DNA of 64,000 nucleotides. Source: Hymenobacter oligotrophus (GTDB lineage Bacteria; Bacteroidota; Bacteroidia; Cytophagales; Hymenobacteraceae). The DNA lies in the NCBI RefSeq assembly GCF_003574965.1, contig NZ_CP032317.1:3968001-4032000 (forward strand), read 5' to 3'. The notes below the pieces were generated by a model, which made no database searches, had not been told where the DNA came from, and worked only from the letters and a program-made list of their open reading frames with translations. Both the position numbers and the translations under genes were made by a program. Positions 2-64,000 of the stretch are shown here, piece after piece; position 1 is the stretch's first letter; each line of letters begins with the position of its first letter.

Positions 2-1240
2 CAGGATGCCCGCACCGCCGACATGCTGCGCCGCGCCGTGGCTTACCTCGACCGCGAACTAGCCGACGACTACGCCCAGCTGCGGCGGCAAAAAGGCGTA
101 AAACTCACCGACGACCACCTAGCCGACGCCACGTTGCAGGCGCTCTACGCCCGCTCGTTTTGGGCGGCCGAGCTGCCCGTACCCGCCGAGGCCAAACCGG
201 CCTACGACTACTACCGCGAGCAAACCGCCAAGTACTGGCCCAAGCGCAACCGCTACCTGCAAGGCTTTGCCGCCATAGTGCTGCACCGCAACGGCCAGGC
301 CAAGTCCGCCCGCGAGGTGGTAGAGGCGCTGCGCCAAAACGCCCTCCGCTCCGACGAGCTCGGCATGTACTGGAAAGACGTGCAGCCGGGCTTCTACTGG
401 CAACAGGCACCCACCGAAACCCAGGCGCAGCTAATCGAGGTGTTCAGCGAAGTAGCCCAAGATCAGCCGTCGGTGGAGGAAATGCAGCTGTGGCTGCTGG
501 CGCACAAGCGCACCCACAACTGGGAAAGCACCCGCGCCACCGCCGATGCCTGCTACGCGCTGCTGCTGCAAGGCGGGCGCAACTGGCTCGAGCCCGCGCA
601 GCCGCTGCAGGTTTCCCTAGGTGCGCAGGGCATCAACACCAGCCAAGGAGCCGAGGCTGGCACCGGTTACCTCAAGCGCAGCTACCCAGCCGCCGAGGTA
701 AAGCCGGCCCTGGGCAAAGTGCGCGTGCAGAAAACCGACGCCGGTGTGGCGTGGGGCGCGCTGTACTGGCAGTACTTCGAGCGACCCGATAAGATTACGC
801 AGGCCGATAAAGCGCCCATTACGCTCACGCGCCAGCTCTTCCGCGAAACACCGAGCAACAACGGCCCGGTACTGGCGCCCATGCAAGCCAATGCCCCACT
901 GCGGGTAGGCGAAGTGCTGGTGGTGCGCCTGGTGCTGAAAACCGACCGCGAGCTAGAGTTTGTGCACCTGAAAGATACCCGCGCCGCGGGCCTCGAGCTG
1001 ATTGGCCAAACCTCGGGCTACCGCTACCAGCAAGGCCTCGGCTACTACGAGAGCCCGCGCGATGCCGCCACCAACTTCTTCCTGGACGTGCTGCCCCGCG
1101 GCACGCACGTGTTCGAGTACCGCTTGCGCGCGGCCCAGGCCGGCGACTTCTCGTCGGGCATTAGCCAGGTGCAGTGCCTTTACGCGCCGGAATTCACCAG
1201 CCACTCGGCCGGTCAGCGCCTGCGCATCGGGGCGCAATAA
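2..1240 (+). CDS. Alpha-2-macroglobulin family protein, C-terminal part (5' end outside window)
   Basis: The reading frame is open from base 2 and gives 412 residues up to the TAA at 1238-1240; the gene clearly begins upstream, so the first internal ATG at 23 is not a real start. The visible part matches the C-terminal half of large bacterial alpha-2-macroglobulin-like proteins of Bacteroidota: a helical toroid-like section (about residues 1-190) with the run LWLLAHKRTHNWESTRAT, then a beta-rich part resembling the receptor-binding-type C-terminus (GVAWGALYWQYFE, then LEFVHLKDTRAAGLE and FFLDVLPRGTHVFEYRLRA). Such proteins are periplasmic or surface protease traps. The thioester motif, if present, would lie upstream of the window, so whether this is a thioester-bearing member cannot be judged. 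A strong hairpin follows at 1262-1320. Confidence 0.8.
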   Translation, partial: QDARTADMLRRAVAYLDRELADDYAQLRRQKGVKLTDDHLADATLQALYARSFWAAELPVPAEAKPAYDYYREQTAKYWPKRNRYLQGFAAIVLHRNGQAKSAREVVEALRQNALRSDELGMYWKDVQPGFYWQQAPTETQAQLIEVFSEVAQDQPSVEEMQLWLLAHKRTHNWESTRATADACYALLLQGGRNWLEPAQPLQVSLGAQGINTSQGAEAGTGYLKRSYPAAEVKPALGKVRVQKTDAGVAWGALYWQYFERPDKITQADKAPITLTRQLFRETPSNNGPVLAPMQANAPLRVGEVLVVRLVLKTDRELEFVHLKDTRAAGLELIGQTSGYRYQQGLGYYESPRDAATNFFLDVLPRGTHVFEYRLRAAQAGDFSSGISQVQCLYAPEFTSHSAGQRLRIGAQ

Positions 1241-1261
1241 CCAGGGCCGCCTAGGGCACTG

Positions 1262-1320
1262 GGTAGCTACGCAGCAACCAACTGCCGGCTATGTCGGCAG
1301 CTGGTTGCTGCGTAGCTACC
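1262..1320. terminator. Long hairpin after the macroglobulin gene
   Basis: Arms 1262-1287 and 1295-1320 pair over 26 bp with a single difference, around a 7-base loop. There is no T-run after it, so it is either a Rho-independent terminator of weak type or a 3' stabilising stem. Confidence 0.55.
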
Positions 1321-1560
1321 GGCGCGCGCCCGCCTTCGGTGGTACATGTGGTGCCCAAAAAACCTCGGACATGAGTTGTTTCCGCGCTGCTGAGCCAAGC
1401 CCTGTTTGGGCAAGAGCCGCGAAGTACCTATAGGTTAAACAAAGCCGTTTTTCAGCGTTTAGGCGGCATATCTTAGCTCGACTATAATAAGTAGGCGGGC
1501 TGCGGCGTTTTTCACCTTTCCAGGAATAAAATGGCCGCTAAGATGCTATTCAGCAGAGGT
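1321..1560. other. Non-coding gap upstream of the basic secreted protein
   Basis: About 240 bases without a convincing reading frame. I see no repeat here; the promoter for the next gene begins at its right edge. Confidence 0.5.
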
Positions 1561-1592
1561 TTTGCCTCTTTCCAAGATGCGTGGTATTTTTG
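1561..1592 (+). promoter_or_regulatory. Bacteroidota-type promoter (TTTG-N20-TATTTTTG)
   Basis: A -33 TTTG at 1561-1564 and a perfect -7 box TATTTTTG at 1585-1592 are separated by 20 bases, the usual spacing for the primary sigma factor of this phylum. The ATG at 1629 lies 36 bases further on. Confidence 0.7.
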
Positions 1593-1628
1593 CGCCCCGG
1601 TTGATTTTTTGGACTGAGAGGATTGCTG

Positions 1629-2171
1629 ATGATACGAACCGCTTTACTTACGGCTGCCCTGGCCGCTCTTGCGCTGACTACCCAGGCCCAACAAGGGCGC
1701 CGTTCGGCCGTTTCGCACGCCAAGCAGCCCGATACGGCCGGCAAAGTAGCCGTACCCGTGGGCCCCGTGTTACCCGGCGAGGAAACCCTTTCGGCCCAGG
1801 AGCGCGCCGAGCGTACTTTCCTGATGCCGGTGCGCAAAAAGATGCCCTCGGCCGTGCGCCCCGGCGCCGCCCCGCGCCCCCAACTCGACCCCGCCAGCGC
1901 CGATGCCGTAGCCATTGGCCCGCCCACGGCCGAAGAGGCAGCCGAAGAAGCCGCCAGCAAGGCCGAGGCTGCTAAAACCACCGCTGCGCGTTCGTCTCGC
2001 TCACGGAGCAGCAGCGCCCGGCGCAGCAGCAGCTCGCGCAGCCGGAGCAGCAGCAAAAAGAGCTCTTCGGCGCGGCGCGGCACGGCCAGCAAAAAGAAGA
2101 GCACAGCCAAGAAAAGCACCAGCAAATCCTCGGCCGCCAAAAAGAAAACTTCCTCGCGCCGCCGGCGCTAG
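1629..2171 (+). CDS. Small secreted protein with a very basic Ser/Arg/Lys tail
   Basis: I do not recognise the family. The ATG at 1629 is preferred over the in-frame TTG two codons earlier because MIRTALLTAALAALALTTQA is a clean signal peptide and a GAGAGG stretch precedes it. The product has 180 residues. After cleavage comes a Pro/Ala-rich section (about 30-115) and then a 65-residue tail made almost only of Ser, Arg, Lys and Ala, with SRSRSSS and AKKS repeats resembling histone H1-like or SR-type tails. Such a tail would bind polyanions such as LPS, nucleic acid or acidic polysaccharide; that is inference. It has its own promoter at 1561-1592 and a 27-bp terminator stem directly behind the stop, so it is monocistronic. 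Because it carries a signal peptide, a nucleoid role is less likely than an envelope one. Confidence 0.6.
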   Translation: MIRTALLTAALAALALTTQAQQGRRSAVSHAKQPDTAGKVAVPVGPVLPGEETLSAQERAERTFLMPVRKKMPSAVRPGAAPRPQLDPASADAVAIGPPTAEEAAEEAASKAEAAKTTAARSSRSRSSSARRSSSSRSRSSSKKSSSARRGTASKKKSTAKKSTSKSSAAKKKTSSRRRR

Positions 2172-2175
2172 CACC

Positions 2176-2233
2176 CCAGGCCATCAACAAAAAAGCACCG
2201 CCCGTTGGCGGTGCTTTTTTGTTGATGGCCTGG
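2176..2233. terminator. Bidirectional intrinsic terminator, 27-bp perfect stem
   Basis: Arms 2176-2202 and 2207-2233 are perfect complements with loop CGTT. A-run and T-run are inside the stem, so it can stop both the rightward gene and the leftward ferredoxin gene. Confidence 0.85.
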
Positions 2234-2258
2234 GACCAACGGGCAACGGCACCTAGGG

Positions 2259-2597
2259 CTAGGCGTTTTGCGGCATTAGGCGCACCACCAACCCATCGAG
2301 GCGGGACGTAATGCGGATTTGGCACGACAAGCGGCTGCCGCTCGACATAATGGGCAACGATTCGAGCATGGCCATTTCGTCGTCGCCGGGCTCGGGCAGC
2401 TCGGGGCCGGCCAGCACCTCCACGTGGCAGGTACCGCACAGGGCCATGCCGCCGCAAGTAGCCTGAATATCATAGCCCGAGGCTTTCATTACCTCCATCA
2501 GGCTCAGGCTCATGTCGGTAGGGGCTACCAGCTCGGTACGCTGGCCTGGGGCGTCCTCAACGTATACGCGTACTTCGGTAATATCTTCCAGGCTCAT
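2259..2597 (-). CDS. 2Fe-2S ferredoxin, adrenodoxin type
   Basis: The protein is 112 residues long. It has the cluster motif CGGMALCGTC (Cys-x5-Cys-x2-Cys) near the middle and a fourth Cys in RLSCQI about 37 residues later, the spacing of adrenodoxin/Isc-type ferredoxins. It should carry one [2Fe-2S] cluster and pass single electrons in the cytoplasm. The next gene upstream on the same strand encodes a ferredoxin-NADP reductase, so the two are a plausible donor-acceptor pair even though a terminator hairpin (2674-2705) lies between them. Nothing tells which final acceptor is used; iron-sulfur assembly or hydroxylase support are both possible. Confidence 0.88.
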   Translation of the reverse strand: MSLEDITEVRVYVEDAPGQRTELVAPTDMSLSLMEVMKASGYDIQATCGGMALCGTCHVEVLAGPELPEPGDDEMAMLESLPIMSSGSRLSCQIRITSRLDGLVVRLMPQNA

Positions 2598-2610
2598 AGC
2601 AAGAGTTCTT

Positions 2611-2756
2611 GGTTGTCAGTTGCGAGTTGTTGGGCTTGGCAATTGGCCCAACGGCGGTGCGAAAAAACGCAAAAACCGGGAGCCAATCTGCATTGGCTCC
2701 CGGTTCTTGCGCATCAGCCCGGTAAGCTGACAACTAACAACTGATAACTGACAACC
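2611..2756. repeat. Flanking GTTGTCAGTT-type repeats around a terminator
   Basis: The stretch 2611-2632 and the reverse complement of 2727-2756 both begin with GGTTGTCAGTT and continue as runs of a heptamer-like AACTGAC/AACTAAC unit. Together they enclose the hairpin 2674-2705. The same architecture with a different heptamer occurs at 17401-17542. Confidence 0.55.
2674..2705 (-). terminator. Intrinsic terminator of the ferredoxin-NADP reductase gene
   Basis: A 14-bp perfect stem (2674-2687 with 2692-2705) and loop CTGC. Read leftward it is followed by TTTTTGCGTTTTTT. Confidence 0.8.
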
Positions 2757-2759
2757 GAT

Positions 2760-3776
2760 TTACAACGTGGGTACGCCGTTTACGGTGGTGTACTTCAGCA
2801 CGTACTTTTTGTCGGGGTACATGTATTTGTAGGCTCCTTGCGCCATCAGGGCCGCTTCGTGGAAGCCGCACAAAATCAGCTTCAGCTTGCCGGGGTAGGT
2901 GTTGATGTCGCCGATGGCGTACACGCCGGGTACCGAGGTAGAATAGTCGAGGGTGTTCACCTTCACGGCGTCGTCTTCGAGCTCCAGGCCCCACTCGCCA
3001 ATCGGGCCGAGCTTGGGCGTGAGGCCAAACAGCGGAATAAAGCTATCGACGGTGATGGTGTTGGTGCTGCCGTCGTTGGCCGTGATGGTAACGGCCTCCA
3101 ACTGCTCCTGGCCGTGCACGTGCGTCACGTTGCTGCTGAGCACCAGGTTTACCTTGCCGGCTTCGTGCAGGGCTTTTACTTTCTCGGCCGAGTCGGCGGC
3201 ACCGCGGAAAGTGGTGCCGCGGTGCACCAGCGTAACCTCCTTAGCCACGTTGGCCAGGAAGATCGTCCAGTCGAGGGCCGAGTCGCCGCCGCCGGCAATC
3301 ACGATGCGCTGGTCGCGGAAGGTTTCGGGGTCGCGCACCATGTAGTACACGCCCTTGCCGCCTTCGTACTTCTCTAGTTCCTCGATGGCGGGCTTGCGGG
3401 GCTCAAACGAACCTAGGCCGCCGGCAATGGCAATGGCTTTGCAGCGAATCTCGGTGCCGTCGGTGGTGGTCAGCACAAAGGAGCCGTCCTCCAGCTTCTC
3501 GAACGACTCAACCCGTTCGCCCAGCGTGAAGGTGGGGTGGAAGGGCTCGATCTGGCGCATGAGGTTTTGCACCAAGTCGCCGGCCAGTACCTCGGGGTAG
3601 CCCGGAATGTCGTAAATGGGTTTCTTCGGGTAGATTTCCGACAGCTGCCCGCCTACTTGCGGCAGGGCGTCGACTACGTGGCAGCGGAGCTTAAGCAAAC
3701 CGGCTTCGAAGACGGCAAACAGCCCCACGGGGCCGGCGCCGATGATGCAGATGTCAGTGGAAATGGTAGCGTGCAT
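2760..3776 (-). CDS. Ferredoxin/flavodoxin-NADP+ reductase, thioredoxin-reductase-like (type 2)
   Basis: The protein has 338 residues from the ATG at 3776 (MHATISTDICIIGAGPVG); a longer frame upstream reaches 3878 but its extra 34 residues look unlike the family. There are two dinucleotide folds: IIGAGPVGLFAVFEAG for FAD at the N-terminus and VIAGGGDSALDW for NAD(P)H at about residue 160. The C-terminal ATP-GD type FAD motif reads GVYAIGDINTYPGK. The CxxC redox pair of thioredoxin reductases is absent, which fits the YumC-like FNR family. It would reduce ferredoxin with NADPH, and a ferredoxin gene follows at 2259-2597. A perfect -7 box TACCTTTG lies at 3889-3896. Confidence 0.9.
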   Translation of the reverse strand: MHATISTDICIIGAGPVGLFAVFEAGLLKLRCHVVDALPQVGGQLSEIYPKKPIYDIPGYPEVLAGDLVQNLMRQIEPFHPTFTLGERVESFEKLEDGSFVLTTTDGTEIRCKAIAIAGGLGSFEPRKPAIEELEKYEGGKGVYYMVRDPETFRDQRIVIAGGGDSALDWTIFLANVAKEVTLVHRGTTFRGAADSAEKVKALHEAGKVNLVLSSNVTHVHGQEQLEAVTITANDGSTNTITVDSFIPLFGLTPKLGPIGEWGLELEDDAVKVNTLDYSTSVPGVYAIGDINTYPGKLKLILCGFHEAALMAQGAYKYMYPDKKYVLKYTTVNGVPTL

Positions 3777-3888
3777 TACGGAGGTAAAACAATCAGCAAA
3801 GGCCACCGCGGCCGGCGGTTGCCCGTTTGTATCTGGTAGATAACCAATGCCAAGGGCAAGAGGTTGCCGCTCGTGCAAAAACGGTGCG

Positions 3889-3896
3889 CAAAGGTA
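3889..3896 (-). promoter_or_regulatory. -7 box TACCTTTG upstream of the FNR gene
   Basis: Perfect match to TAnnTTTG on the minus strand, 112 bases before the start codon. No clear -33 TTTG was found at the right distance. Confidence 0.5.
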
Positions 3897-3963
3897 CGGC
3901 GCTTCGGTTAAAACATAGTGCCCTAGGTATAAACATGCTGGCGGCCGGCGGGGTCCAAACGCA

Positions 3964-3999
3964 CCACGGGCGGGCGCACCTAGGTGCGCCCGCCCGTGG
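3964..3999. terminator. 36-base perfect palindrome centred on CCTAGG
   Basis: Positions 3964-3981 are the exact reverse complement of 3982-3999, so the dyad axis lies inside CCTAGG at 3979-3984. In RNA it would fold into a 16-bp stem with a CUAG tetraloop. It directly follows the stop codon of the M36 peptidase gene on the minus strand. There is no T-run. Confidence 0.65.
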
Positions 4000-4028
4000 G
4001 CTGGGATGAGAGCTGAAGGGCTAGCGCG

Positions 4029-7145: not shown

Positions 7146-7154
7146 AGAATAGTG

Positions 7155-17550: not shown

Positions 17551-18426
17551 ATGGCTTGGTTTAAGCGTCAGGAGAAAGGCATTATTACCCCCACGGAGCA
17601 GAAAAAGGAAACGCCCGACGGCCTCTGGTACAAGTGCCCAGAGTGCGGAACCGTGAGCGACATGGGCGAGCATCGCCGCCTGCTGTACACGTGCGCCAAG
17701 TGCAACTACCACGACCGCATCGACTCGGCTGAGTACTTCGAGGTGTTGTTCGACAACAACCAATTTGAGGAGCTCGACGCCGAGCTGTCGTCGGGCGACC
17801 CGCTGCACTTCGTCGACACCAAGCCTTACCCGCAGCGCATTAACTCCACGCAGCGCGCCACCGGCCTGAAGGACGCCGTGCGCACCGCCCACGGCCAGAT
17901 TAACGGCCTCGACCTAGTGGTGGCCTGCATGGATTTCAAATTCATCGGCGGCTCGATGGGTTCGGTAGTAGGCGAGAAGATTGCCCGCGCCATCGACTAC
18001 GCCCGCAAAAACCGCATTCCGTTCCTAATGATCAGCAAATCGGGCGGGGCGCGCATGATGGAGGCCGGCTACTCGTTGATGCAAATGGCCAAAACCTCGG
18101 CCAAGCTGGCCTTGCTGGCCGAAGCCGGCGTGCCGTACATTTCTTTGCTCACCGACCCCACCACCGGCGGCGTTACGGCCTCGTACGCCATGCTCGGCGA
18201 CTTTAATATTTCGGAGCCCGGCGCACTCATTGGCTTTGCCGGACCTAGGGTTATCAAAGAAACCATTGGCAAGGATTTGCCCAAGGGTTTCCAGAGCGCC
18301 GAGTTCGTGCTTGAGCACGGCTTCCTCGATTTTATAGTAGATCGTAAGCAACTGAAGCAACAGCTCTCCGACTTGCTTACCATGCTCCGTCCTGCCGAGG
18401 TGCCCGCAGCCCCGGCCCGCGCCTAG
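17551..18426 (+). CDS. accD: Acetyl-CoA carboxylase carboxyltransferase subunit beta
   Basis: The protein has 291 residues. The N-terminal zinc ribbon uses Cys29, Cys32, Cys48 and Cys51 (KCPEC and TCAKC). The crotonase-fold core contains [16 protein letters not shown] and [21 protein letters not shown], the acyl-CoA site, and [20 protein letters not shown] near the C-terminus. With the alpha subunit (not in the window) it transfers CO2 from carboxybiotin to acetyl-CoA, the first step of fatty acid synthesis. The stop codon TAG at 18424-18426 lies inside a CCTAGG site. A 17-bp-stem terminator follows. Confidence 0.96.
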
Positions 18427-22786: not shown

Positions 22787-23551
22787 ATGCCCATTGCCGC
22801 GCTACCCGTTGCCTACCACCTGCCCGCAGCCGACAAAACGCTGCTGGTACACCATGTACTGAACGACTTTTATGGGCCGCTGCCCACGGCCCCGCGCCGT
22901 TCGCCCATGCGCGAACTCATCAGCACGGTGCTCTCGCACCGCACTACGCACCGCGACGAAGAGCTGGCCTACGACCGCATGCTCGAAACGTTCGGGGATT
23001 GGGCTGCGGTGGAGCAGGCACCCACGGCTGAGCTGGCCCACGCCATCCGGACCACGCGCTGGCCCGACACGCAGGCGCCGCGCATTCAGGAAATTTTGCG
23101 CCGCATTCGGGCCGAATTTGGCGCCTACTCGCTCGATGCTTTGGCCGATTGGCCCACTGAAAAAGCCCTGACCTGGCTTACCGACATGCCCGGCATCGGC
23201 CTAAAAACGGCCTCGCTCGTGCTGCTGTTCAACTTTCAGAAACCCGTGCTGCCCGTGGATACGCACGTGCACCGCGTGGCCCAGCGCGTTGGGCTGATCG
23301 GGCCGAAAACATCCGTGGAAAAAGCGCACCAAGTGCTGCTGGCGCAATTGCCCGCCGATGCCGTGGCGCTGCTCAACTTTCACAAACACAATTACTGGCT
23401 GGGGCAGCACATTTGCTTTTTTGCCAAGCCCGATTGCCCTAGGTGCCCGCTCAAAGGCGTGTGCAACCATTACCTCGAGCACTACGGCCCCGCCGACGAG
23501 GCGGCCCTGGCCGAAGTGCCCCGCAGCTGGGAAGGGGAGAAGCTGCACTAG
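22787..23551 (+). CDS. Endonuclease III-like DNA glycosylase with 4Fe-4S cluster
   Basis: The protein has 254 residues of the HhH-GPD superfamily. The helix-hairpin-helix reads DMPGIGLKTASLVLLFNF with the catalytic-type Lys, and the conserved Asp is in LPVDTHVHRVAQRVG. Four Cys at 210, 217, 220 and 226 (C-x6-C-x2-C-x5-C) form the iron-sulfur loop. It should excise oxidised pyrimidines and cut the abasic site. It is more diverged than typical Nth, and a housekeeping nth may exist elsewhere. The radical SAM gene starts 54 bases after its stop, but with its own promoter box. Confidence 0.88.
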   Translation: MPIAALPVAYHLPAADKTLLVHHVLNDFYGPLPTAPRRSPMRELISTVLSHRTTHRDEELAYDRMLETFGDWAAVEQAPTAELAHAIRTTRWPDTQAPRIQEILRRIRAEFGAYSLDALADWPTEKALTWLTDMPGIGLKTASLVLLFNFQKPVLPVDTHVHRVAQRVGLIGPKTSVEKAHQVLLAQLPADAVALLNFHKHNYWLGQHICFFAKPDCPRCPLKGVCNHYLEHYGPADEAALAEVPRSWEGEKLH

Positions 23552-31868: not shown

Positions 31869-32333
31869 ATGTCTCGTAATTACGAACTTGACGACACCGA
31901 CCGTAAGATACTGGCGCTGCTGCTCGAAGACGCCAAAATGCCCTATACAGAAATAGCGCGTCGGGTACATGTTTCGGGCGGCACAGTGCACGTGCGAATG
32001 GGCCGCCTCGAGGAACTAGGTATTGTGCGCGGCGCTACCCTCAAAATCGATTATGCCAAGCTGGGCTACGGCGTAAACGCCTTCTTGGGCATTTACTTGC
32101 TTAAAAGCTCGGTGTACAACAGCGTAGCCGAGCAACTGCGCGATATTCCGGAGGTGGTCAGCATTCACTTTACCACGGGCGCCTACGGCGTGTTTGCCCG
32201 GCTGGTATGCCGCGATACGCAACACCTGCGCGATGTACTGCACGACAAAATTCAGCTGATCGAAGGCATTGAGCGGACCGAAACCCTGATTTCGTTGGAG
32301 GAAACGCTCAACCGCCCCATTCAGCTAATGTAG
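31869..32333 (+). CDS. Lrp/AsnC family transcriptional regulator
   Basis: The protein has 154 residues from the ATG at 31869 (MSRNYELDDTDRKILALLLE); a TTG ten codons earlier is in frame but not needed. The N-terminal winged helix-turn-helix contains MPYTEIARRVHVSGGTVHVRMGRLE, and the C-terminal RAM domain (about 70-150) contains AFLGIYLLKSS and VSIHFTTGAYGVFARLVC with the effector-site Gly residues. Such proteins assemble as octamers and respond to amino acids. A CCTAGG-containing terminator follows. Confidence 0.92.
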   Translation: MSRNYELDDTDRKILALLLEDAKMPYTEIARRVHVSGGTVHVRMGRLEELGIVRGATLKIDYAKLGYGVNAFLGIYLLKSSVYNSVAEQLRDIPEVVSIHFTTGAYGVFARLVCRDTQHLRDVLHDKIQLIEGIERTETLISLEETLNRPIQLM

Positions 32334-32349: not shown

Positions 32350-32383
32350 GGCCGGCCCTAGGCGTAGCAACCTAGGGCCGGCC
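32350..32383 (+). terminator. Terminator whose two arms each contain CCTAGG
   Basis: A 13-bp perfect stem (32350-32362 with 32371-32383) and an eight-base loop. CCTAGG closes the loop on both sides (32357-32362 and 32371-32376). It is followed by TTGCATTTTATTG. Confidence 0.75.
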
Positions 32384-34816: not shown

Positions 34817-37800
34817 TTAAATCAGCTGGCAAGTCTCAATTTCCATTTCGCGCATCTTGAAGATAAACGACTTCGGGTCAATGCGGTAGCGGCGCGAGTA
34901 CGTATCCACCGTGAGGTGCTCGTGCGGTTCAGCAAACTTGATTTCGAGCTTCTTCGAGCCGGCGCATTCCTCCACGGCGGCCATAAAGCGGTCCATGAAC
35001 GGCTCCGTAATGGTGCGCAGATCGAGTTGCACGCGCACGCCGTTGGCCAGCTTTTCGGCCACGTTGAACAGGGGCTCCATGGTCAGAATCTTGAACTCGA
35101 ACTGATCGGAGTCGCGGAAACGTTGCGCGTACTTGCCCCGGATGTACATGGGCGGCACCTGCTCCTTGTCGTAGTTGCGCGGGTTGATGATGGCCGAAAA
35201 GCGGGTGTAATCGTCGCGGAACAAAGCCAGGTTGATGCTGGAGTCGTAGTCTTCCACGTTGAACGACACAAACGGTTGGCCCGTCTTGGTCGTCTTAAAC
35301 ATCACGTTCGAAATCAGCCCGGCCACCGTGATGTCGCGGTTCTTGTAGTTCTCGATTTTATCGAGCCCGCAGGTGCAGTACGAATCAATTTCCAGCTTGA
35401 AGTCGTCGAGCGGGTGGCCCGATAGGTAGAAACCCACCACTTCCTTTTCGCGGCGCAACTGCTCGGTAGCGGGCCAGGGCTCCATGTCGGGCACCTTGGG
35501 CAGCGGCATGGCCACTGCCCCGAACGCGCCGCCCCCAAACAAGCTCTGCTGGGCCGAGTCCTGGTCGGCCTGGTGCTGCTGACCTAGGCGCACGGCCTTG
35601 TCGATGAGGTGCTGGTCGCCGGACGGCGCCTCCACAAACTGGCGGCGGTGGTAGCGCTCAAACGAATCGAAGGCACCGGCCAAGGCCAGGCTTTCGAACG
35701 TTTTCTTGTTCACGGCGCGCAGGTTCACGCGCTTCGCAAAGTCGAAGATATCGGAGTACGGGCCTTTTTTCTCCCGTTCGGCCACAATGTTCTCGATGGC
35801 GGCTTCGCCGGCGCCCTTTACGGCCGCCATGCCAAAACGAATCTGGCCCTTTTCGTTTACGTTAAACTTCAGTACCGATTCGTTCACGTCGGGGCCGAGT
35901 ACCTGCACGCCCTGCCGGCGCGCCTCCTCGATAAAGAAGGTCACCTTCTTGATGTCCGACATGTTGTTCGTCAGCACGGCGGCCATGTACTCGGCCGGGT
36001 AGTTGGCCTTGAGATAACCCGTTTGGTAAGCCACCACCGAGTAGGCGGCCGAGTGGGAGCGGTTGAAGCCGTAGGCCGCAAACTTCTCCATCACGTCGAA
36101 CACCTCGTTGGCCTTCTTTTCTTTGATGCCGTGCAGCTCGAGGGCGCCTTTGCAGAATTTCTCCCGCTCCTGCGCCATCTTTTTCATGTCCTTCTTACCC
36201 ATGGCCCGGCGCAGCAAGTCGGCGCCACCTAGGGAGTAGCCGGCCAAAATCTGGGCCGTTTGCATGATCTGCTCCTGGTACACCATAATGCCCTGGGAGT
36301 AGTTCAGGATGGGCTCCAGCAGCTCGTGCGGGTATTCAATGGGTTCGCGGCCGTGCTTGCGGTTGATGAAGTTCGGGATGAACTGCATCGGGCCGGGGCG
36401 GTACAGCGCGTTCATGGCAATCAGGTCCTCAATGTTGGTGGGCTTGAGGTCCTTGAGGTACATGCGCATGCCCTCCGATTCGAACTGGAACGTGCCGATG
36501 GTGTCGCCGCGCTGGTACAGCTCGTAGGTTTTCGGGTCGTCGAGCGGAATGTCGTCGATGTTGATGTCGACGCCGTGGTTCTTCTTGATCAGGGTAAGCG
36601 CGTCCACGATAATCGTGAGCGTCTTCAGACCCAGGAAGTCCATCTTCAGCATCCCCGCCGACTCAATCACCTTGCCGTCGAACTGCGTCACCAGCAGGTC
36701 CGAGTCCTTGGAGGTCGAAACCGGGATGTACTTCGTGATGTCGTCGGGGGCAATGATGACGCCGGCCGCGTGGATGCCGGTGTTGCGCACCGAGCCCTCC
36801 AGCTTTTCGGCCAGGCGCAAAATTTGCCCGCGCAGGTTGTCCGGCGCGTCGTCGCGGCGGATCATGTCCAGCTCCTGGTTTTCGGCAAACGCCCCGGCCA
36901 ACGTGGTGCCGGGTTTTTCGGGCACCATCTTGGCCAGCTCGTTGGTGGCGGGCAAAGGCAGCTCCATGGCACGGGCCACGTCCTTGATGCTCGACTTGGC
37001 GGCCATGGTACCGAAGGTGATGATTTGGGCCACCTGCGTTTTGCCGTACTTATCCACCACGTAGTCAATCACGCGCTGGCGGTTCACGTCGTCAAAGTCG
37101 ATATCGATATCGGGCATCGACACGCGCTCGGGGTTCAGGAAACGCTCGAACAGCAGCGAGTACTTGATGGGGTCGATGTTGGTGATGCCGACGCAGTAGG
37201 CCACCGCCGAACCAGCGGCCGAGCCACGGCCCGGGCCCACGGCCACGCCCATGTCGCGTCCTTTGTTGATGAAGTCCTGCACGATCAGGAAGTAGCCGGC
37301 AAAGCCCATCGTCTGGATAATGCGCAGCTCGTACTCCAGCCGTTCCTCGATTTCGGGCGTGCGCTCCGAGTAGCGCGGCGGCTTGGTCATCGTCACGATG
37401 CCCTTGCCCGCACTCGGTCCGAAAGCGCCCACGTACGTCAGCTCGCGCAGGAATTCGTCGGCGTTGGCAAAGCCAGCCGGCAGCGGGAAATTGGGCAACA
37501 GAATGTCGCGCGCCAGCTTGGGCGGCGTGATTTTGTCGACGATTTCGTTCGTGTTGTCCAGGCTTTCGGGCACGTCGTGAAACAGCGCCGCCATTTCCTC
37601 CTGCGTCTTGAAGTAGAACTGGTCGTTGGGGAAACCGAAGCGCGAGCGGGGCTTGGGCATCTGCATTTCCTCGTCGATGCGCATCAGCTGGCGGCGCACT
37701 TGGTCGTCGCGGCCGGCCAAGGGGCGCAGGTTGTCGAGGTGGTCGTAGAGTACCTGGTTTTCGCCCGAAATCAGCCGGAAATACCTGGTCTGAAAATCAC

Positions 37801-38533
37801 CGACCGGGATGCTGTGCTCCTCGCCGGTATTCACGCACAACAGCAAATCGTGCGGGGCAAAGTCCTGCTGGTCGACGTAATGCGAGTCGTTGGTGCAAAT
37901 CACCTTCACGTTGTACTTCTTCGCCCACTTCAGCAGCGTCTGGTTCAGGTCTTCTTGGCTTTTGCCCGTGTTGTCGATGTTCTGAATGCCGTGGCGCTGA
38001 ATCTCGATGTAGTAGTCCTCACCGAATACATCGAGCCACCACTGCAGCAGCTTCTCGGCCTCTTCCTCCGATTTCCACAGCAAGGCCTGCGGAATTTCGG
38101 CGCCGATGCAGCAGGAGGTAGCAATCAGCCCTTCGCTGTACTGCAGCAGCAACTCCTTGTCGATGCGCGGGTACTTGCTGTACACACCCTCGATAAAGCT
38201 CATGGAGCAGAGCTTGGCCAGGTTCTGGTAGCCGGCTTGGTCTTTGGCCAGCAGCAGCTGGTGGAAGCGGTTGTCCCGCTCGCCCTTTTCGCGGCTAAAC
38301 TGCTTTTTGTGCCGGTCTTCCACCAAGTAAAACTCGCAGCCCACAATGGGCTTCACGTTGTACTTGTTGGCCTCGGCCACAAAGTTGAACGCCCCAAACA
38401 TGTTGCCGTGGTCGGTGAGGGCCACCGCGGGCATGCCGTCCTTCTGGGCCTTTTTCATCAGCGCCGAAATGCTGGCCTGGCCGTCGAGCAGGGAGTATTG
38501 GGTGTGGCAGTGGAGGTGCGAAAACGTAGGCAT
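34817..38533 (-). CDS. dnaE: DNA polymerase III alpha subunit
   Basis: The protein has 1238 residues from the ATG at 38533 (MPTFSHLHCHTQYSLLDGQA); an ATG four codons earlier is possible. It has an N-terminal PHP domain (HCHTQYSLLDG, ALTDHGNMFG), the polymerase palm with catalytic Asp in VSMPDIDIDFDDVNRQRVID, the fingers and thumb region (GIHAAGVIIAP, YRPGPMQFIPNFINRKHG, AMGKKDMKKMAQEREKF), a beta-clamp/OB-fold C-terminal half (NRDITVAGLISNVMFKTTKT). It is the replicative polymerase. The PHP metal ligands appear intact. Upstream on the minus strand a TAACTTTA box lies at 38576-38583. Confidence 0.98.
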   Translation of the reverse strand: MPTFSHLHCHTQYSLLDGQASISALMKKAQKDGMPAVALTDHGNMFGAFNFVAEANKYNVKPIVGCEFYLVEDRHKKQFSREKGERDNRFHQLLLAKDQAGYQNLAKLCSMSFIEGVYSKYPRIDKELLLQYSEGLIATSCCIGAEIPQALLWKSEEEAEKLLQWWLDVFGEDYYIEIQRHGIQNIDNTGKSQEDLNQTLLKWAKKYNVKVICTNDSHYVDQQDFAPHDLLLCVNTGEEHSIPVGDFQTRYFRLISGENQVLYDHLDNLRPLAGRDDQVRRQLMRIDEEMQMPKPRSRFGFPNDQFYFKTQEEMAALFHDVPESLDNTNEIVDKITPPKLARDILLPNFPLPAGFANADEFLRELTYVGAFGPSAGKGIVTMTKPPRYSERTPEIEERLEYELRIIQTMGFAGYFLIVQDFINKGRDMGVAVGPGRGSAAGSAVAYCVGITNIDPIKYSLLFERFLNPERVSMPDIDIDFDDVNRQRVIDYVVDKYGKTQVAQIITFGTMAAKSSIKDVARAMELPLPATNELAKMVPEKPGTTLAGAFAENQELDMIRRDDAPDNLRGQILRLAEKLEGSVRNTGIHAAGVIIAPDDITKYIPVSTSKDSDLLVTQFDGKVIESAGMLKMDFLGLKTLTIIVDALTLIKKNHGVDINIDDIPLDDPKTYELYQRGDTIGTFQFESEGMRMYLKDLKPTNIEDLIAMNALYRPGPMQFIPNFINRKHGREPIEYPHELLEPILNYSQGIMVYQEQIMQTAQILAGYSLGGADLLRRAMGKKDMKKMAQEREKFCKGALELHGIKEKKANEVFDVMEKFAAYGFNRSHSAAYSVVAYQTGYLKANYPAEYMAAVLTNNMSDIKKVTFFIEEARRQGVQVLGPDVNESVLKFNVNEKGQIRFGMAAVKGAGEAAIENIVAEREKKGPYSDIFDFAKRVNLRAVNKKTFESLALAGAFDSFERYHRRQFVEAPSGDQHLIDKAVRLGQQHQADQDSAQQSLFGGGAFGAVAMPLPKVPDMEPWPATEQLRREKEVVGFYLSGHPLDDFKLEIDSYCTCGLDKIENYKNRDITVAGLISNVMFKTTKTGQPFVSFNVEDYDSSINLALFRDDYTRFSAIINPRNYDKEQVPPMYIRGKYAQRFRDSDQFEFKILTMEPLFNVAEKLANGVRVQLDLRTITEPFMDRFMAAVEECAGSKKLEIKFAEPHEHLTVDTYSRRYRIDPKSFIFKMREMEIETCQLI

Positions 38534-38937
38534 AAGCGGGGGCAATGCGGCACAGGGTTGGGGTGCTGCATCAGGTAAAGTTACCGCTGGGGTAGGGGAA
38601 AGAGAAATTGGGGGAACGGATGTTTTTGTGTATCAACAACAAAAAACTGCCGCGTTTCGAGCCCTTGGCAGCGTGGCTTACCTAGGGCCCCGCTGGTGCC
38701 GCAGGCACCGGCATTCGCCACCACCTAGGAAACCCGTGCAAGTTGGCCAAGGGCCGTGTTCCGGTGCAAAGGCTTACCTTGATGTCGGGCTGTTGCGAGC
38801 GGTGCGCGCCAATGCGGCCAAGAGCGGCACAACACCTATCGGCAACCCGCGTTTGTAATACCGGAAGCGTAACAGGTAGCAGCAAGGCGCTGCAAACCAA
38901 GTAGTATAATCGGTAGCTACTTAAGCCAAGTTCTGTT
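38534..38937. other. 400-base divergent intergenic region
   Basis: It lies between dnaE and the desaturase gene. I see a minus-strand -7-like box TAACTTTA (38576-38583) for dnaE, two CCTAGG sites (38681, 38724) and a TATAAT-like run near 38906 before the desaturase gene. No gene is supported. Confidence 0.5.
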
Positions 38938-58268: not shown

Positions 58269-58319
58269 GGCGCCTCGGCGGTAGCCTAGGGGCTGGCATC
58301 AGAGAAACAAGCTTAACCA

Positions 58320-59387: not shown

Positions 59388-59405
59388 GCACCAGCTTCCA
59401 CAACC

Positions 59406-59439
59406 AAAAAGCCGACCTAGCATCCTAGGTGGGCTTTTT
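59406..59439 (+). terminator. Intrinsic terminator with CCTAGG in one arm
   Basis: A 15-16 bp stem with one difference (59406-59420 with 59424-59439), loop CAT, and A5/T5 runs. CCTAGG lies at 59424-59429. Confidence 0.8.
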
Positions 59440-59514
59440 CAGGTCAGGCCACGGCAGGTTTGCCGCAAGCAACGTAGTTAGGCAAGCACCCACTTGCCCC
59501 AAGCTTGTTGCCGC

Positions 59515-60000
59515 ATGACTGAAAACACTCCCGCCGCCACCCAACCGCCACCCGCCGACCACACCGTGGTGGTGCGCGTAGGCCCCGATGCGCTGCTTGC
59601 CGATGTGCAGGCCGGCCGACATACCTTCATCATCGACGAGCCCGTGGCCGTTGGTGGGCACGACCGCGGCCCCACGCCCTACGATATGCTGCTCTCGGCC
59701 CTAGGTGCCTGCACGGCCATCACGCTGCGCCTGTATGCCAACCAAAAGCAATGGCCGCTCGAGGGCGTAGAGGTACGCCTTTCGCACGGGCGCGAGCACC
59801 GGCTCGACTGCGAGCAATGCGAGCAGGAAGCCGGTGCCAACCTCGAAGTGGTGCGCAAGCAGCTGCGCCTGCTCGGGCCCCTCACGGCCGAGCAACGCCA
59901 GCGTTTGGAGGTAATCTCGGCCAAGTGCCCGGTGCAGAAAACCCTCAGCAAAAGCCTGCGCATCGAAACCACTTTGGTGCCCGCCGATGCTTGGGTGTGA
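59515..60000 (+). CDS. OsmC family peroxiredoxin-like protein
   Basis: The protein has 161 residues from the ATG at 59515 (MTENTPAATQPPPADHTVVV). The two conserved cysteines of OsmC/Ohr proteins are in LSALGACTAITLRLYANQ (peroxidatic) and VISAKCPVQKTLSKSL (resolving). It also has SHGREHRLDCEQCEQEAGAN with an extra CxxC pair, as in the YhfA-like subgroup. The protein acts as a cytoplasmic dimer and removes organic hydroperoxides with dihydrolipoamide-type reductants. It is monocistronic. Confidence 0.9.
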   Translation: MTENTPAATQPPPADHTVVVRVGPDALLADVQAGRHTFIIDEPVAVGGHDRGPTPYDMLLSALGACTAITLRLYANQKQWPLEGVEVRLSHGREHRLDCEQCEQEAGANLEVVRKQLRLLGPLTAEQRQRLEVISAKCPVQKTLSKSLRIETTLVPADAWV

Positions 60001-60109
60001 GCCCTAGGTACCCACAGCTTGCGTTGCCATAAAGGGCCTACGCACCGAACAAAAAACCTTGCCGACTCCAGATCAAGCAATGCCTGCGGTAGTCGTTCTG
60101 CATAAGCCC

Positions 60110-60150
60110 AACAAAAAGCCCGGTTGCTGTTAGCAACCGGGCTTTTTGTT
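60110..60150. terminator. Bidirectional terminator, 19-bp perfect stem
   Basis: Arms 60110-60128 and 60132-60150 with loop GTT and A5/T5 runs separate the convergent OsmC and serS genes. CCTAGG stands right beside it (60152-60157). Confidence 0.9.
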
Positions 60151-60170
60151 ACCTAGGCGAAGCGCTGGAG

Positions 60171-61448
60171 CTAGCCCAGCTGCGCAAAGCCGCAGTAGCG
60201 GTGCAGCACCTCGGGCAGGCGAATGGTGCCATCGGCTTGCTGGTTGTTTTCGAGCAAGGCTGCCACAATGCGCGGCAAGGCCAGCGCCGAGCCGTTGAGC
60301 GTGTGCAGCAGCTGCGTTTTGTTGTTTTCGTCGCGGTAGCGCAGCTTCAGGCGGTTGGCCTGGTAGGTTTCGAAGTTCGAGCAGGAGGATACCTCCAGCC
60401 AGCGCTGCTGCGCCGCCGACCACACTTCCAAGTCGTAGGTGAGGGCCGAGGTGAAGCCCATATCGCCGCCGCAGAGGCGCAGCACGCGGTAGGGCAGCTC
60501 CAGCTTCTGCAGTAGGCCTTCGATATGGCCCAGCATGCGCTCCAGGGTTTGGTACGAGCGCTCCGGCAGATCGATTTCCACAATCTCTACCTTATCGAAC
60601 TGGTGGAGGCGGTTGAGGCCGCGCACGTGCGCACCCCACGAGCCCGCCTCGCGGCGGAAGCAGGGCGTATAGCCCGCGTTGCGCACGGGCAGGCGCTCGG
60701 TGGCAATAATTTCGTCGCGGTAGAGGTTGGTAATGGGCACCTCCGCCGTCGGAATTAGGTACAGGTCGTCGGCGGTGGCGTGGTACATCTGGCCCTCTTT
60801 GTCGGGCAGCTGACCGGTGCCGTACCCCGAGGCCTCGTTGATGAGAATGGGCGGCTGCATTTCGGTGTAGCCGGCGGCCATGGCTTCATCAAGGAAGAAG
60901 TTGATGAGCGCGCGCTGCAAGCGGGCACCCTGGCCTTTGTACACCGGAAAGCCGGCGCCCGTAATCTTATTGCCGAGCTCAAAATCGATGATATCGAGCT
61001 TCTTAATCAGGTCCCAGTGGGGGAGGGCTTCGCCGGGTAGTTCGGGCTTATTGCCTACTTCGCGCACCACCTCGTTATCGTCGGCCGAGCGGCCGGCCGG
61101 CACGCTCGCGTGCGGCACGTTCGGAATGCGATACAAGGCGTCCTGCAGCTCCTTTTCCACGCCGGTTAGCTCTTCGGCAGCGGTTTTGGTTTGCTGCTTG
61201 AGGGCGGCGGTGCGGCTTTTCAGCTCTTCGGCGCCGGCTTTGTCGCCGCTTTTCATCAGCGCGCCAATTTGCTGGGCCAGCTTGTTGGCCTCGGCCTGGG
61301 CCGAGTCGTGCTCGGTTTGCAGCTGTCGGCGGCGTTGGTCGAGCTCCAGCACACGTTGCACCTCGGCCTCAGCGTTGGGGAAATTCCTTTTGGTTAGGCC
61401 GGCCAATACCCGGTCGGTTTGTTCTTTCAGGACGGAAACTTGCAGCAT
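60171..61448 (-). CDS. serS: Seryl-tRNA synthetase
   Basis: The protein has 425 residues from the ATG at 61448 (MLQVSVLKEQTDRVLAGLTK); the frame continues to 61874 but the promoter at 61479-61486 lies in it. The N-terminal long coiled-coil arm (about 30-100) contacts the tRNA-Ser long arm. The class II core shows motif 1 GARLQRALINFFLDEAM, motif 2 FRREAGSWGAHVRGLNRLHQ and motif 3 NGSALALPRIVAALLENNQQ. The TAEVP loop (LIPTAEVPITNLYRDE) recognises serine. Start and length agree with the family. Confidence 0.97.
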   Translation of the reverse strand: MLQVSVLKEQTDRVLAGLTKRNFPNAEAEVQRVLELDQRRRQLQTEHDSAQAEANKLAQQIGALMKSGDKAGAEELKSRTAALKQQTKTAAEELTGVEKELQDALYRIPNVPHASVPAGRSADDNEVVREVGNKPELPGEALPHWDLIKKLDIIDFELGNKITGAGFPVYKGQGARLQRALINFFLDEAMAAGYTEMQPPILINEASGYGTGQLPDKEGQMYHATADDLYLIPTAEVPITNLYRDEIIATERLPVRNAGYTPCFRREAGSWGAHVRGLNRLHQFDKVEIVEIDLPERSYQTLERMLGHIEGLLQKLELPYRVLRLCGGDMGFTSALTYDLEVWSAAQQRWLEVSSCSNFETYQANRLKLRYRDENNKTQLLHTLNGSALALPRIVAALLENNQQADGTIRLPEVLHRYCGFAQLG

Positions 61449-61876
61449 ACTTCGGCGACGATACGCGATGAAACGTGGCAAAAGTAGCGGTTTTCGGGTG
61501 CCGCCGGCAGTTCTGCCGCCGAGTTGGTGCGCTTCGGCACCTAGGAGCCGAAAAGCAAACAGCCCGCTCGGAACTAAGCCAATCTGCGAAAAGTTAAATT
61601 CTCGAGCACTGTTTATAAAATCGGTGCATCCTATTGGCCCTTTTGGCCGTATTGCGTAACATTGCGCAAGCAAGCCGGCGTCTGATGCCGGGCCCAGCCC
61701 TAGGTGGTTTCCGGCCCGATTGGTTCCAGCGCCCAGAGTCTCTAGCTTTTCTGACATCCTGCCCGCGCGTTTGCGCTGCTTATCTGTTGGGTTTGTGCCG
61801 TGGCAGCTCGCCAAAGGGCCGCGGCGGCATTTGCCGGGCATCTCCACCCCGATTTCTCTCCCTCCCGTACCCATTT
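61449..61876. other. 430-base divergent region between serS and rho
   Basis: It carries the serS promoter on the minus strand and a leader of up to some 300 bases for rho on the plus strand. I see two CCTAGG sites (61540, 61699) and a plus-strand TAGCTTTT (61742-61749) that might be a weak -7 box. A long rho leader fits autoregulation of rho, known from other bacteria, but no clear attenuator is visible. Confidence 0.45.
61479..61486 (-). promoter_or_regulatory. -7 box TACTTTTG for serS
   Basis: Perfect TAnnTTTG on the minus strand, 30 bases before the start codon. Confidence 0.6.
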
Positions 61877-64000
61877 ATGTACACTATTGACGAGCTCAAG
61901 GACCGCTTGTTGTCCGAGCTGAAGGAAATAGCCGAATCCCTTAACGTGGGCAATTTCCGCCGCCTGAGCAAGCAGGACCTTATCTACAAGATTCTGGATC
62001 AGCAAGCTATTACGCCGCCCGATAAAATGCCTACCAAACGGGCTCCGCTGGCCGAAACCATTGATGCCGCCCCTGCGCTGAATGGCAACGCAGCCCCAGC
62101 CGGCCGCCCCGAGCGCCGTGGTGGCCGCACTGCGGCACCGGCACCTGCGCCGTTGGCCGCCGAAGTTCCCGCACTCGAAGCAGCTGTGGCAGTAGCCGAC
62201 GCACCCGCCGTTGCGGTGCCGGAGGTACAAGCCAACGGGCGCCCGCCGCGCGGCGCACAGCGCGGTGGCCGCGGCCGTCGCAACGACGCCCCGGCCGTTT
62301 CCCTTGCCCCCGACGAAGACGCCAACACAACTGCCGCACCGCTGCCGCCCGTGGAGGCCCCGGCCCCCGACGCGCCCGTTATTGCGCAACCCGTACCCGA
62401 AATTCCGCAGCCCGCCGAAGCACCTGCGCCGCGCCCGGCCGAGGAGCAGCCCCGCGAGCAACGCCCCGTGCGTTTTGTGGTGCCGCAACCCGGCCGCGAG
62501 CCGCGCGAAATTCGCCCGGCCGATTACCGCCGCGACGCGCCGCGTCCCAACCGCAACGAGCCCCGCGAGCCGCGCCCCGTGCAGCAGGGTGCCCCCGAGC
62601 AAGCGCCCCAGGCGCCGCGCCCCCTAGGTGAGCAGCCGCGTCCGCTCAACGGGCAGGCACCGCAACAGCAGCAGCTACCCCGCGATGAACGCGAAGTGCG
62701 CGAGCCGCGGGAACCCCGCGAAATGCGCGAAGGCCGCGAACCCCGCGACCGTGACCAGCGCCGCGAAGAACGCTTTAACCGCGAAGGCCGCCAACCGCAG
62801 CAGCAAGGGCCGCGCCAGGCCGGCGAGCCAGGCCAGCAGCCGCAACAGCAGCGGCAGCCGCAATTGCCGCGCGTCGAGTCGTTGGATATCACCATCCCGA
62901 GCGAAGGTGCCCTGGAGATGATGCCCGACGGCGGCTACGGCTTCCTCCGCTCGCCCTACTACAACTACTTAGCCTCGCCCGACGACATTTACGTGTCCCC
63001 GCAGCAGGTAAAGCAGTACTCGCTCAAGGCCGGCGACACCGTGAAGTGCACCGTGCGCCCGCCCAAAGAAGGCGAGAAGTATTACGCTCTGGTAACGGTA
63101 GAGAGCGTAAACGGCCGCTCGGTAGAAGACGTGCGCGACCGGATTTCCTTCTCGCACCTTACGCCGTTGTTTGCCGAAGAGCGCCTGAAGCTGAGCACCT
63201 CGCCCTCGCAGTACAGCACGCGTATTCTGGATTTGTTTGCCCCCATTGGTAAAGGCCAGCGCGGCCTGATTGTGGCGCAGCCGAAAGTAGGCAAGACGGT
63301 GCTGCTGCAAGAAATTGCCAACTCCATCGCCGAAAACCACCCCGAGGTGTACCTGATGATTTTGCTCATCGACGAACGCCCCGAGGAGGTAACCGAAATG
63401 CAGCGCACGGTGAAAGCCGAAGTGCTCAGCTCGACCTTCGACGAAACCGCCGACCGCCACGTGAAAATCGCCGGCATGGCCCTCGACAAAGCCAAGCGCC
63501 TGGTGGAGTGCGGCCACGATGTGGTAATTCTGCTCGACTCGATTACCCGCCTCGCCCGCGCCTACAACACGGTGCAGCCCTCGTCGAGCCGCATCCTGTC
63601 GGGTGGTATCGATGCTGGCGCACTCCAGAAGCCCAAGCGCTTCTTCGGTGCCGCCCGCAACGTTGAGAATGGCGGTTCGCTCACCATCATTGCCACAGCC
63701 CTGACGGACACCGGCTCGAAGATGGATGAAGTAATCTTCGAAGAATTCAAGGGCACCGGCAACATGGAGTTGCAGCTCGACCGCAAGCTGGCCAACAAGC
63801 GCATCTTCCCGGCCATCGACGTGCCGGCATCCGGCACCCGCCGCGAAGACCTGCTGATGGGCAAGGAAGAGCTCAGCCGCGTGTGGGTACTGCGCAAGTT
63901 CATGTCCGACATGACCTCCACCGAGGCCATGGAGTTCCTGAAAGACCGCATGAAAGGCACCCGCGACAACATGGAATTCCTGGTATCGATGAACGGCTAA
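61877..64000 (+). CDS. rho: Transcription termination factor Rho with a long disordered insert
   Basis: The protein has 707 residues from the ATG at 61877 ([20 protein letters not shown]); the open frame upstream lacks similarity. The N-terminal helical domain (1-50; [15 protein letters not shown]) is followed by a disordered insert of about 285 residues, first Ala/Pro-rich, then Arg/Glu/Pro/Gln-rich ([20 protein letters not shown]). The cold-shock RNA-binding domain (about 338-410; [20 protein letters not shown]) and the RecA-type ATPase come next, with the P-loop [16 protein letters not shown] near 468, Walker [17 protein letters not shown] and the Q/R loops. The stop codon is the last codon of the window. 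Long inserts of this sort are typical of Bacteroidota Rho. Confidence 0.97.

Follow-up and report, generated by a model that had tools for sequence, protein, structure and literature searches.

The stretch of DNA analysed here, referred to as the window, comprises 64,000 nucleotides of Hymenobacter oligotrophus (contig NZ_CP032317.1, positions 3,968,001 to 4,032,000), in which dnaE, the gene for the DNA polymerase III alpha subunit, is accompanied by many copies of the hexamer CCTAGG, lying both between and inside genes (Table 1). This word is the subject of the present text. In one group of Hymenobacter, the heptamer ACCTAGG is held at about 1.3 copies per kb by a force that acts on the DNA word and not on the protein, because CTA codons are concentrated in its context, its sites are retained between species, and the same sites are empty in five outgroups.

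A sequence-only reading of the window had estimated about 91 copies of CCTAGG against about 21 expected at about 62% GC, with about 42 copies in the roughly 16% of non-coding DNA and about 44 of 49 coding copies read as CTA-GGN. The recount agrees closely: 91 exact copies were found, of which 43 are intergenic (16.3% of the window being non-coding), 42 are coding as CTA-GG, five are coding as CCT-AGG at exactly the positions that had been named, and one lies at a gene edge, the genes being those of a simple caller of our own. The expectation from Markov models is 21.0 (order 0), 12.2 (order 1), 10.2 (order 2) or 20.3 (order 3), and reaches 74.2 at order 4, an order that absorbs CCTAGG itself; dinucleotide shuffles of the window give a mean of 12.35 copies (standard deviation 3.13, maximum 21). 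By the ratio of observed to order-3 counts, CCTAGG ranks first of the 64 palindromic hexamers in the window, and a single flanking A (or its complement T on the opposite side) is present at 74 of the 91 copies, as compared with an A on both flanks at 8 and on neither at 9. The whole-genome count, which the same reading had proposed as a check, is likewise far from chance: the genome of the window (G000; 4,188,814 bases in 4 contigs) holds 5678 copies, or 1355 per Mb, vs 67 copies of the reversed control word.

Codon context and retention of the word between species

The genus was sampled by eight genomes, three of them rich in the word (G000, G005 and G007) and five poor (G001, G002, G003, G004 and G006). 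Sites in G000 were analysed in detail over 924 kb containing 1283 copies, and coding and intergenic DNA were separated by genes called with our own simple caller. The word reaches 2.75 copies per kb in intergenic and 1.07 in genic DNA, and its density in spacers is highest between convergent genes (4.29 per kb), followed by co-directional (2.98) and divergent ones (2.06). The 835 coding sites are read as CTA-GG in 762 cases and as CCT-AGG in 73, with 59 further sites at gene edges. When a Leu codon is preceded by a codon ending in C and followed by GG, CTA is chosen in 762 of 1254 cases (60.8%), vs 6.6% of 1081 cases lacking only the C, 5.0% of 9250 lacking only the GG, and 4.4% of 17,370 lacking both; similarly, Arg is encoded by AGG in 75.3% of 97 cases after CCT and in 0.9% of 16,663 cases after non-Pro codons. 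The share of CTA in the full context amounts to 357/566, 304/583 and 347/514 in the three rich genomes vs 6/132, 2/122, 0/105, 1/96 and 1/63 in the five poor ones. The codon-pair bias beyond codon use that had been proposed for Leu-Gly is therefore strong, and the earlier view that it is the DNA word which is kept or spread through synonymous choice of a rare codon is borne out by the 60.8% vs 4–7% use of CTA, by site retention and by absence from the outgroups. A drive at the amino-acid level was rejected, since the observed/expected ratio of Leu-Gly (1.04–1.06 in the rich genomes vs 0.84–1.04 in the poor ones) is too weak to claim.

Between species, G000 sites are intact in 69.5% of 511 alignable cases in G005 and 76.9% of 497 in G007, while ten comparison words, mostly one-off words, are retained at 0.28–0.56 and 0.22–0.58, respectively. 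Conservation of sites, which the sequence-only reading had proposed as a check, is thus found, though some unrelated words do equally well: CCTAGG ranks 122 of 2303 words against G005 and 9 of 2236 against G007, and its loss rate of 0.368 is about that of TGCGCA (0.373) and CCATGG (0.374), with 11 other control words at 0.546–0.743. A tally of turnover gives 187 singletons vs 158 losses; the other two genomes disagree at 134 of the singletons, which leaves 53 gains with an agreed ancestor, and the balance of gain and loss is therefore not established.

Outside the three rich genomes, the 177 sites of G000 in the 124 kb around the window were alignable in 63 (G006), 65 (G003), 42 (G002), 46 (G004) and 41 (G001) cases, and at none of these is CCTAGG intact in any of the five outgroups. 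The words standing there instead are varied, and CCTCGG/CCGAGG, a transversion away, is about as frequent as CCTGGG/CCCAGG, so that the finished word appears to be favoured by any path. Such a preference for the completed word amounts to either selection or transmission biased towards alleles that bear it.

Table 1. Coordinates of the features discussed, as positions of the window
Feature	Position	Strand	Description
91 CCTAGG	616..62628	.	41 ACCTAGGG (either orientation), 26 ACCTAGGC, 7 ACCTAGGA, 8 ACCTAGGT, 9 with no flanking A
CCT-AGG (Pro-Arg), rare reading	18244..18249	+	Others in the window at 23438, 29160, 33995, 54622
Hairpin of two sites (32357, 32371)	32350..32383	+	13-bp perfect inverted repeat, 8-base loop; read from sequence
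dnaE (DNA polymerase III alpha)	34817..38545	-	Outside the feature; used for placing the eight genus members and finding orthologous regions

The asymmetric unit, its second element and its arrangement

The unit held in these genomes is the asymmetric heptamer ACCTAGG, with G preferred next and ACCTAGGG as its best form. Among 389 intergenic sites of G000, 225 read ACCTAGGG, 97 ACCTAGGC and 25 ACCTAGGA, giving 347 with A on exactly one flank, and the remainder consist of 15 with A on both sides (ACCTAGGT) and 27 without A; sites with two A are too few for two independent flanks, which makes the unit asymmetric. Intergenic sites oriented by this A also prefer G at -3 and C at -2, and G followed by C on the 3' side of the core. 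In comparisons over ordered genome pairs, by which one site is counted more than once, 94% of the intergenic cases keep the flanking A, vs 0.70–0.82 for the other flank positions, and whole sites are retained in the order ACCTAGGG (0.76–0.80), ACCTAGGC (0.67–0.72) and ACCTAGGA (0.57–0.65), followed by sites with A on both sides or neither (0.53–0.61). Inside genes, the Gly codon is GGT in 54.6% of 762 cases after CTA and in 18.5% of 492 cases after other Leu codons. The counts further show that the core CCTAGG is strictly required, in an all-or-none manner. A symmetric palindrome was considered and set aside, because the orientation-free fit is blurred by codon periodicity and intergenic sites oriented by the flanking A show the asymmetry.

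A second element lies upstream of the core. In each of the three rich genomes, intergenic sites brought into one orientation show a preference for G at -29, T at -27 and C at -25. The corresponding hexamer GGTGCC, with its first letter 29 bases upstream of the core and one mismatch tolerated, accompanies intergenic ACCTAGG in 60 of 371 cases in G000 (mean at other offsets 4.4, maximum 11), 27 of 189 in G005 (2.2, maximum 5) and 14 of 184 in G007 (1.9, maximum 5). The same offset stands out in coding DNA, with 46 of 839 (9.6, maximum 18), 16 of 342 (3.9, maximum 9) and 12 of 363 (4.1, maximum 11), respectively. In inverted orientation GGTGCC reads GGCACC, the hexamer overlapping the core, and a whole inverted CCTAGG occupies the place of the second element in 18 of 346 intergenic sites; after the removal of sites with CCTAGG at -45 to -12, GGTGCC is still present at 38 of 315 intergenic and 40 of 821 coding sites of G000. 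One-off control words have no peak at -29, with at most 1 intergenic and 7 coding matches. About one in six intergenic sites is therefore a 37-base bipartite GGTGCC-N19-GGCACCTAGGGC or near it, always on the same side, and since GGTGCC sits at one fixed upstream distance, the reader of the word appears to touch DNA at two places some 25–29 bp apart on one side.

Along the chromosome, the two orientations of the word are balanced (566 vs 573) without a trend over 41 chromosome pieces, and no polarity of the type known from FtsK-orienting polar sequences (KOPS) or Chi is seen. Over 39 blocks of 20 kb, a mean of 28.3 sites was counted with a variance/mean ratio of 0.96, which falls to 0.53 without one motif-poor block, so that the evenness hangs on a single row. 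As a null, one-off words were drawn at random with the coding fraction matched. Relative to it, gaps shorter than 150 bp and longer than 2 kb are scarcer in G000, G005 and G007. Counts in bins of 2 and 5 kb show a low variance in G000 and G005 only; G007 has one 10.8-kb stretch empty of sites. One stretch of G000 (L163; G000:C1:2800001-2820000) carries 7 copies in 20 kb vs about 28 usual and is perhaps a recent insertion.

Most sites are single. Among intergenic oriented pairs within 45 bp, however, 22 of 31 face inward (25% if random), and 14 of these 22 have stems of at least 10 bp, of which 7 bp follow from the definition. The hairpin in the window, for example, lies 17 bases past a gene end at 32333 with a T-rich stretch behind it and is terminator-like, its left copy having no flanking A. 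The small contigs of G000 hold few sites, namely 2 copies on C2 (40 of 42 kb), 0 on C3 (20 of 32 kb) and 0 on C4 (10 of 11 kb), and are perhaps plasmids.

Distribution among relatives and candidate CTAG-core dialects

Among named sequences, the DnaE of the window is closest to those of Hymenobacter, at 80–89% identity in the best segment, which places the genome in Hymenobacter or in a genus split off from it. Within the genus sample, CCTAGG amounts to 5678 copies in G000, 5325 in G005 and 6212 in G007, vs 123–249 in the five other members, and the remaining 50 genomes of a 58-genome set of relatives, in which the eight are included, hold 5–807. In the regions around dnaE (364 kb in the three rich and 500 kb in the five poor genomes) the density is 1360 vs 42 per Mb, a 32-fold difference. 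Such an excess over relatives is also the reverse of the avoidance in the host that is shown by a restriction-modification target. DnaE of G005 and G007 is 97% identical to that of the window, and that of the five poor genomes 94–95%; over aligned parts, the rich genomes share a nucleotide identity of 0.88 with one another and of 0.79–0.80 with the poor ones. Since the rich genomes group together by both measures, one gain on one branch would be the simplest reading of their shared word. A genome of another family of the same order (G048) carries 807 copies in 4.0 Mb vs 62 of the control word, possibly a weaker, independent case.

A related word was met in a 23.7-kb locus of Hymenobacter sp. 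BT559 (L005), the only one that led further in a word survey of named loci, which returned mostly common codon-type words. This locus contains 37 GCTAGC, 35 CCTAGC and 1 CCTAGG, and its CTA share is 26/69 in [GC]|Leu|GC contexts vs 41/560 elsewhere; in three other Hymenobacter loci the same contexts give 2/60, 4/47 and 0/48. No clear fixed offset of GGTGCC was found around its GCTAGC-type words (at most 5/74, with few sites). A family set of 204 genomes was then tallied, the CCTAGG and GCTAGC figures being raw counts read by eye without a base-composition expectation. At least 1000 CCTAGG occur in 13 of the 204, 3 in genus g1 and 10 in genus g5, the latter including G125 (8806), G140 (8591), G109 (7530), G070 (5949), G076 (5749) and G158 (5585); at least 2000 GCTAGC occur in 19 of the 204, all in g5, for instance G032 (7271), G084 (6779), G158 (6725), G076 (6583) and G157 (6150). 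G032, G084 and G157 are rich in GCTAGC with CCTAGG at only 264–381, the three rich g1 genomes are rich in CCTAGG with GCTAGC at 619–1230, and G076, G158, G125 and G140 have both, while the other four genera of the family reach maxima of 465 CCTAGG and 819 GCTAGC. By these counts GCTAGC, alone or together with CCTAGG, reaches a similar density in other family members. We infer that BT559 is linked to g5. Genomes with CCTAGG only, with GCTAGC only and with a mixture share CTAG, the flanks of GCTAGC having been seen in the single 23.7-kb locus and the need for the core being read from counts. Intermediate CCTAGG counts in g5 (G080, 2331; G172, 2190; G082, 2027; G164, 1209) mark genomes that may be gaining or losing the word.

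Other words differ between the rich and poor genomes as well. CTCGAG occurs at 22–36 per 100 kb in G000, G005 and G007 vs 1–7 in the five poor genomes, in most of which it ranks with the most strongly avoided palindromes; as it is not among the listed extremes of the rich genomes, relaxed avoidance seems likelier than iteration. GAC/GTC is lower in the rich genomes (1608–1640 vs 2278–2555 per 100 kb; observed/expected 0.69–0.71 vs 0.84–0.91). In all eight genus members CGATCG is strongly avoided, with observed/expected ratios of about 0.02–0.20, and TCGCGA is nearly so.

Candidate explanations and comparison with known systems

The reading preferred here, at a probability of about 0.43, is that the CCTAGG word may be a self-DNA sequence of the uptake type. 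A natural-transformation receptor would bind the word, and self DNA bearing it would be preferentially taken up and recombined; word-bearing fragments would be over-represented among incoming alleles, by which the word would ratchet up at neutral positions, that is, in intergenic DNA and at third codon positions, and shifts of receptor specificity between species would give rise to dialects. Such a model would account for the asymmetry, the second contact, the lack of polarity, the inverted pairs, the dialects with a common core and the scarcity on small contigs. ComEC, found in all eight genus genomes, permits the model and does not support it. In the same phylum, Riemerella columbina prefers its own DNA on a basis left unexplained, with only A/T-rich candidate words listed in PMC7965970, and transformation of R. 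anatipestifer, according to PMC8459023, needs ComEC, DprA, ComF and RecA together with four proteins without known function; on both grounds, an as yet unnamed receptor in Bacteroidota is plausible.

Several observations weigh against the uptake-type reading. It is strained by the all-or-none core and by retention that is blind to neighbours: heptamer one-off words at positions 2–7 stand at 0.38–1.37 of expectation in the rich genomes (relatives 0.38–1.67), without the near-match excess that uptake sequences show according to PMC1939737, and a site is retained irrespective of how near its closest neighbour lies (coefficient 0.04, permutation standard deviation 0.098), even though selection acting on fragments would leave closely spaced sites redundant. 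The five word-poor genomes have ComEC as well, and so its presence does not track the word. Moreover, the gains with an agreed ancestor arose chiefly by one transition from CCTGGG/CCCAGG (26 of 53), the second element accompanies only a minority of sites, and the evenness is mixed, the coefficient of variation of gaps being reduced in G005 alone, raised in G007 and no different in G000.

Part of this evidence suits a conversion drive of the repair type, in which a putative mismatch endonuclease or repair factor would read ACCTAGG(G) in one strand of heteroduplex DNA, whose other strand it would then remove; word-creating mutations would be fixed and word-breaking ones repaired, leaving the word as a by-product without function. 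We know of no such word-specific repair enzyme. The sharp, enzyme-like core without a reservoir of near misses would fit this drive, as would retention independent of neighbouring sites, the 762 of 1254 synonymous opportunities taken, and CCTGGG/CCCAGG at 0.67 of relatives in the three rich genomes pooled, though in G005 alone it is not lowered (103 vs 63–139 per 100 kb); the density also lies in the range of 500–2500 per Mb given for highly iterated palindromes (HIPs) in PMC4390886. However, a further contact that is always 29 bases away exceeds the needs of a simple restriction-type enzyme, partial evenness of spacing is unexpected from a purely local process, and a drive acting in trans should let long-resident plasmids gain sites, whereas the small contigs remain at background (CTA in 2 of 48 contexts). 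The repair-type drive is accordingly rated as unlikely, if still worth serious consideration. The second element moved the odds of the uptake-type reading from 0.40 to 0.43, lowered those of the repair-type drive somewhat, and lowered slightly those of a control of recombination resembling Chi, in which an exonuclease of the RecBCD/AddAB type would halt at ACCTAGGG, shield self DNA and start recombination. A GC-rich asymmetric octamer of sharp specificity that is scarce on small contigs would agree with this last proposal, which is nonetheless improbable given the lack of strand bias, whether in total or along the chromosome pieces, a density of about 1.36 per kb that exceeds usual Chi densities, a more than 30-fold difference among species within the genus, and a second element that does not fit.

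Methylation offers another route, since CCTAGG is a restriction-site word, of AvrII and others according to PMC1939737, and alternate HIPs exist in cyanobacteria; following Elhai's cyanobacterial model, CCTAGG would be methylated and enriched by methyl-directed mismatch repair. HIP-bearing genomes have a matching methyltransferase, as PMC4390886 states. A search (METHYLTRANSFERASES) for PF00145, PF01555, PF02384, PF02086 and PF07669 found no family common to G000, G005 and G007, and as far as these five families go, Elhai's rule fails here. G000 has no PF00145, PF01555 or PF02086; its one PF02384 gene, type I-like, lies in a motif-poor stretch (2 CCTAGG in 15 kb at 2.985–3.000 Mb), and its one PF07669 match is below the cut-off and of a kind that word-poor relatives have too, while G007 has only one PF01555 match and G005 several matches. 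As the unit is also asymmetric, a methyltransferase-linked origin is quite improbable. A passive rise of CCTAGG through lost CTAG avoidance or codon usage deserves next to no credence: CTAG is strongly avoided in the five poor genus members (observed/expected 0.17–0.41), but the other CTAG hexamers of G000 remain near the levels of G006 and G003, CTA is rare outside the motif context (4–7%), and the flanking A is conserved; the levels of the other hexamers and the rarity of CTA suffice to refute such a passive rise.

Carried further, the uptake-type reading would give Hymenobacter its own, independently evolved self-DNA recognition, composed of a bipartite GGTGCC plus ACCTAGGG, CTAG-core dialects in sister species and an as yet unnamed receptor, with no shared methyltransferase, and would make it the first of its kind in Bacteroidota; this wider proposal is advanced tentatively, at less than even odds, its standing having risen slightly with the second element. 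Among the literature matches listed, none reports iteration of CCTAGG or CTAG in Hymenobacter. Why one short word should occur thousands of times is a long-standing question, and the function of HIP1 is still without agreement. Three word-bearing species, five sisters without the word and another CTAG-core word in the same family amount to a natural experiment: the gene responsible can be looked for through its pattern of occurrence across these genomes, and the uptake, methylation and repair models make different and simple predictions.

The likeness to HIP1 that the sequence-only reading had proposed holds for density, 1355 per Mb being within the HIP range, and fails for the palindromic unit, for an accompanying methyltransferase as far as the five families searched go, and for near-miss words, which are not in excess. 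Like HIP1 and the alternate HIPs of cyanobacteria (Elhai 2015, PMC4390886), the word is a short GC-rich one present in thousands of copies at about 1 per kb in genic and intergenic DNA, and one word replaces another in some lineages; unlike them, it belongs to a Bacteroidota host, ACCTAGG/G is asymmetric with a one-sided second element, CTAG-core words recur within one family, none of the five methyltransferase families is shared, and one-off words show no excess. In common with Chi, the best form is a GC-rich asymmetric octamer of sharp specificity; in contrast to Chi, the CCTAGG word lacks strand bias and hence any orientation bias with replication, is far denser, and varies more than 30-fold within a genus. 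As with repetitive extragenic palindromic (REP) elements, inverted pairs can make intergenic hairpins; unlike REP elements, the sites are alike over only about 7–11 contiguous bases, 835 of 1283 are genic, and most are single.

Uptake words have been recorded from two bacterial families, and the DNA uptake sequences (DUS) and uptake signal sequences (USS) so named form inverted hairpin pairs between genes. The CCTAGG word is likewise an iterated non-palindromic word without strand bias, with some inverted terminator-like pairs; near matches in excess, which also belong to DUS/USS, are absent. DUS/USS of Neisseriaceae and Pasteurellaceae (Frye 2013, PMC3630211) are similarly asymmetric, present at about 1 per kb and equal in both orientations, and similarly combine a strict short core with graded flanks; their dialects have a core in common, to which the CTAG of the Hymenobacter words may correspond. 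In contrast, the CCTAGG word has 7–8 bases vs 9–12, possesses a strict six-base core, occurs in another phylum and is known here from sequence alone. The CCTAGG system, though on the features tested a member of neither class, works like DUS/USS or HIP, and in anatomy it resembles DNA uptake sequences no less than it resembles HIP1.

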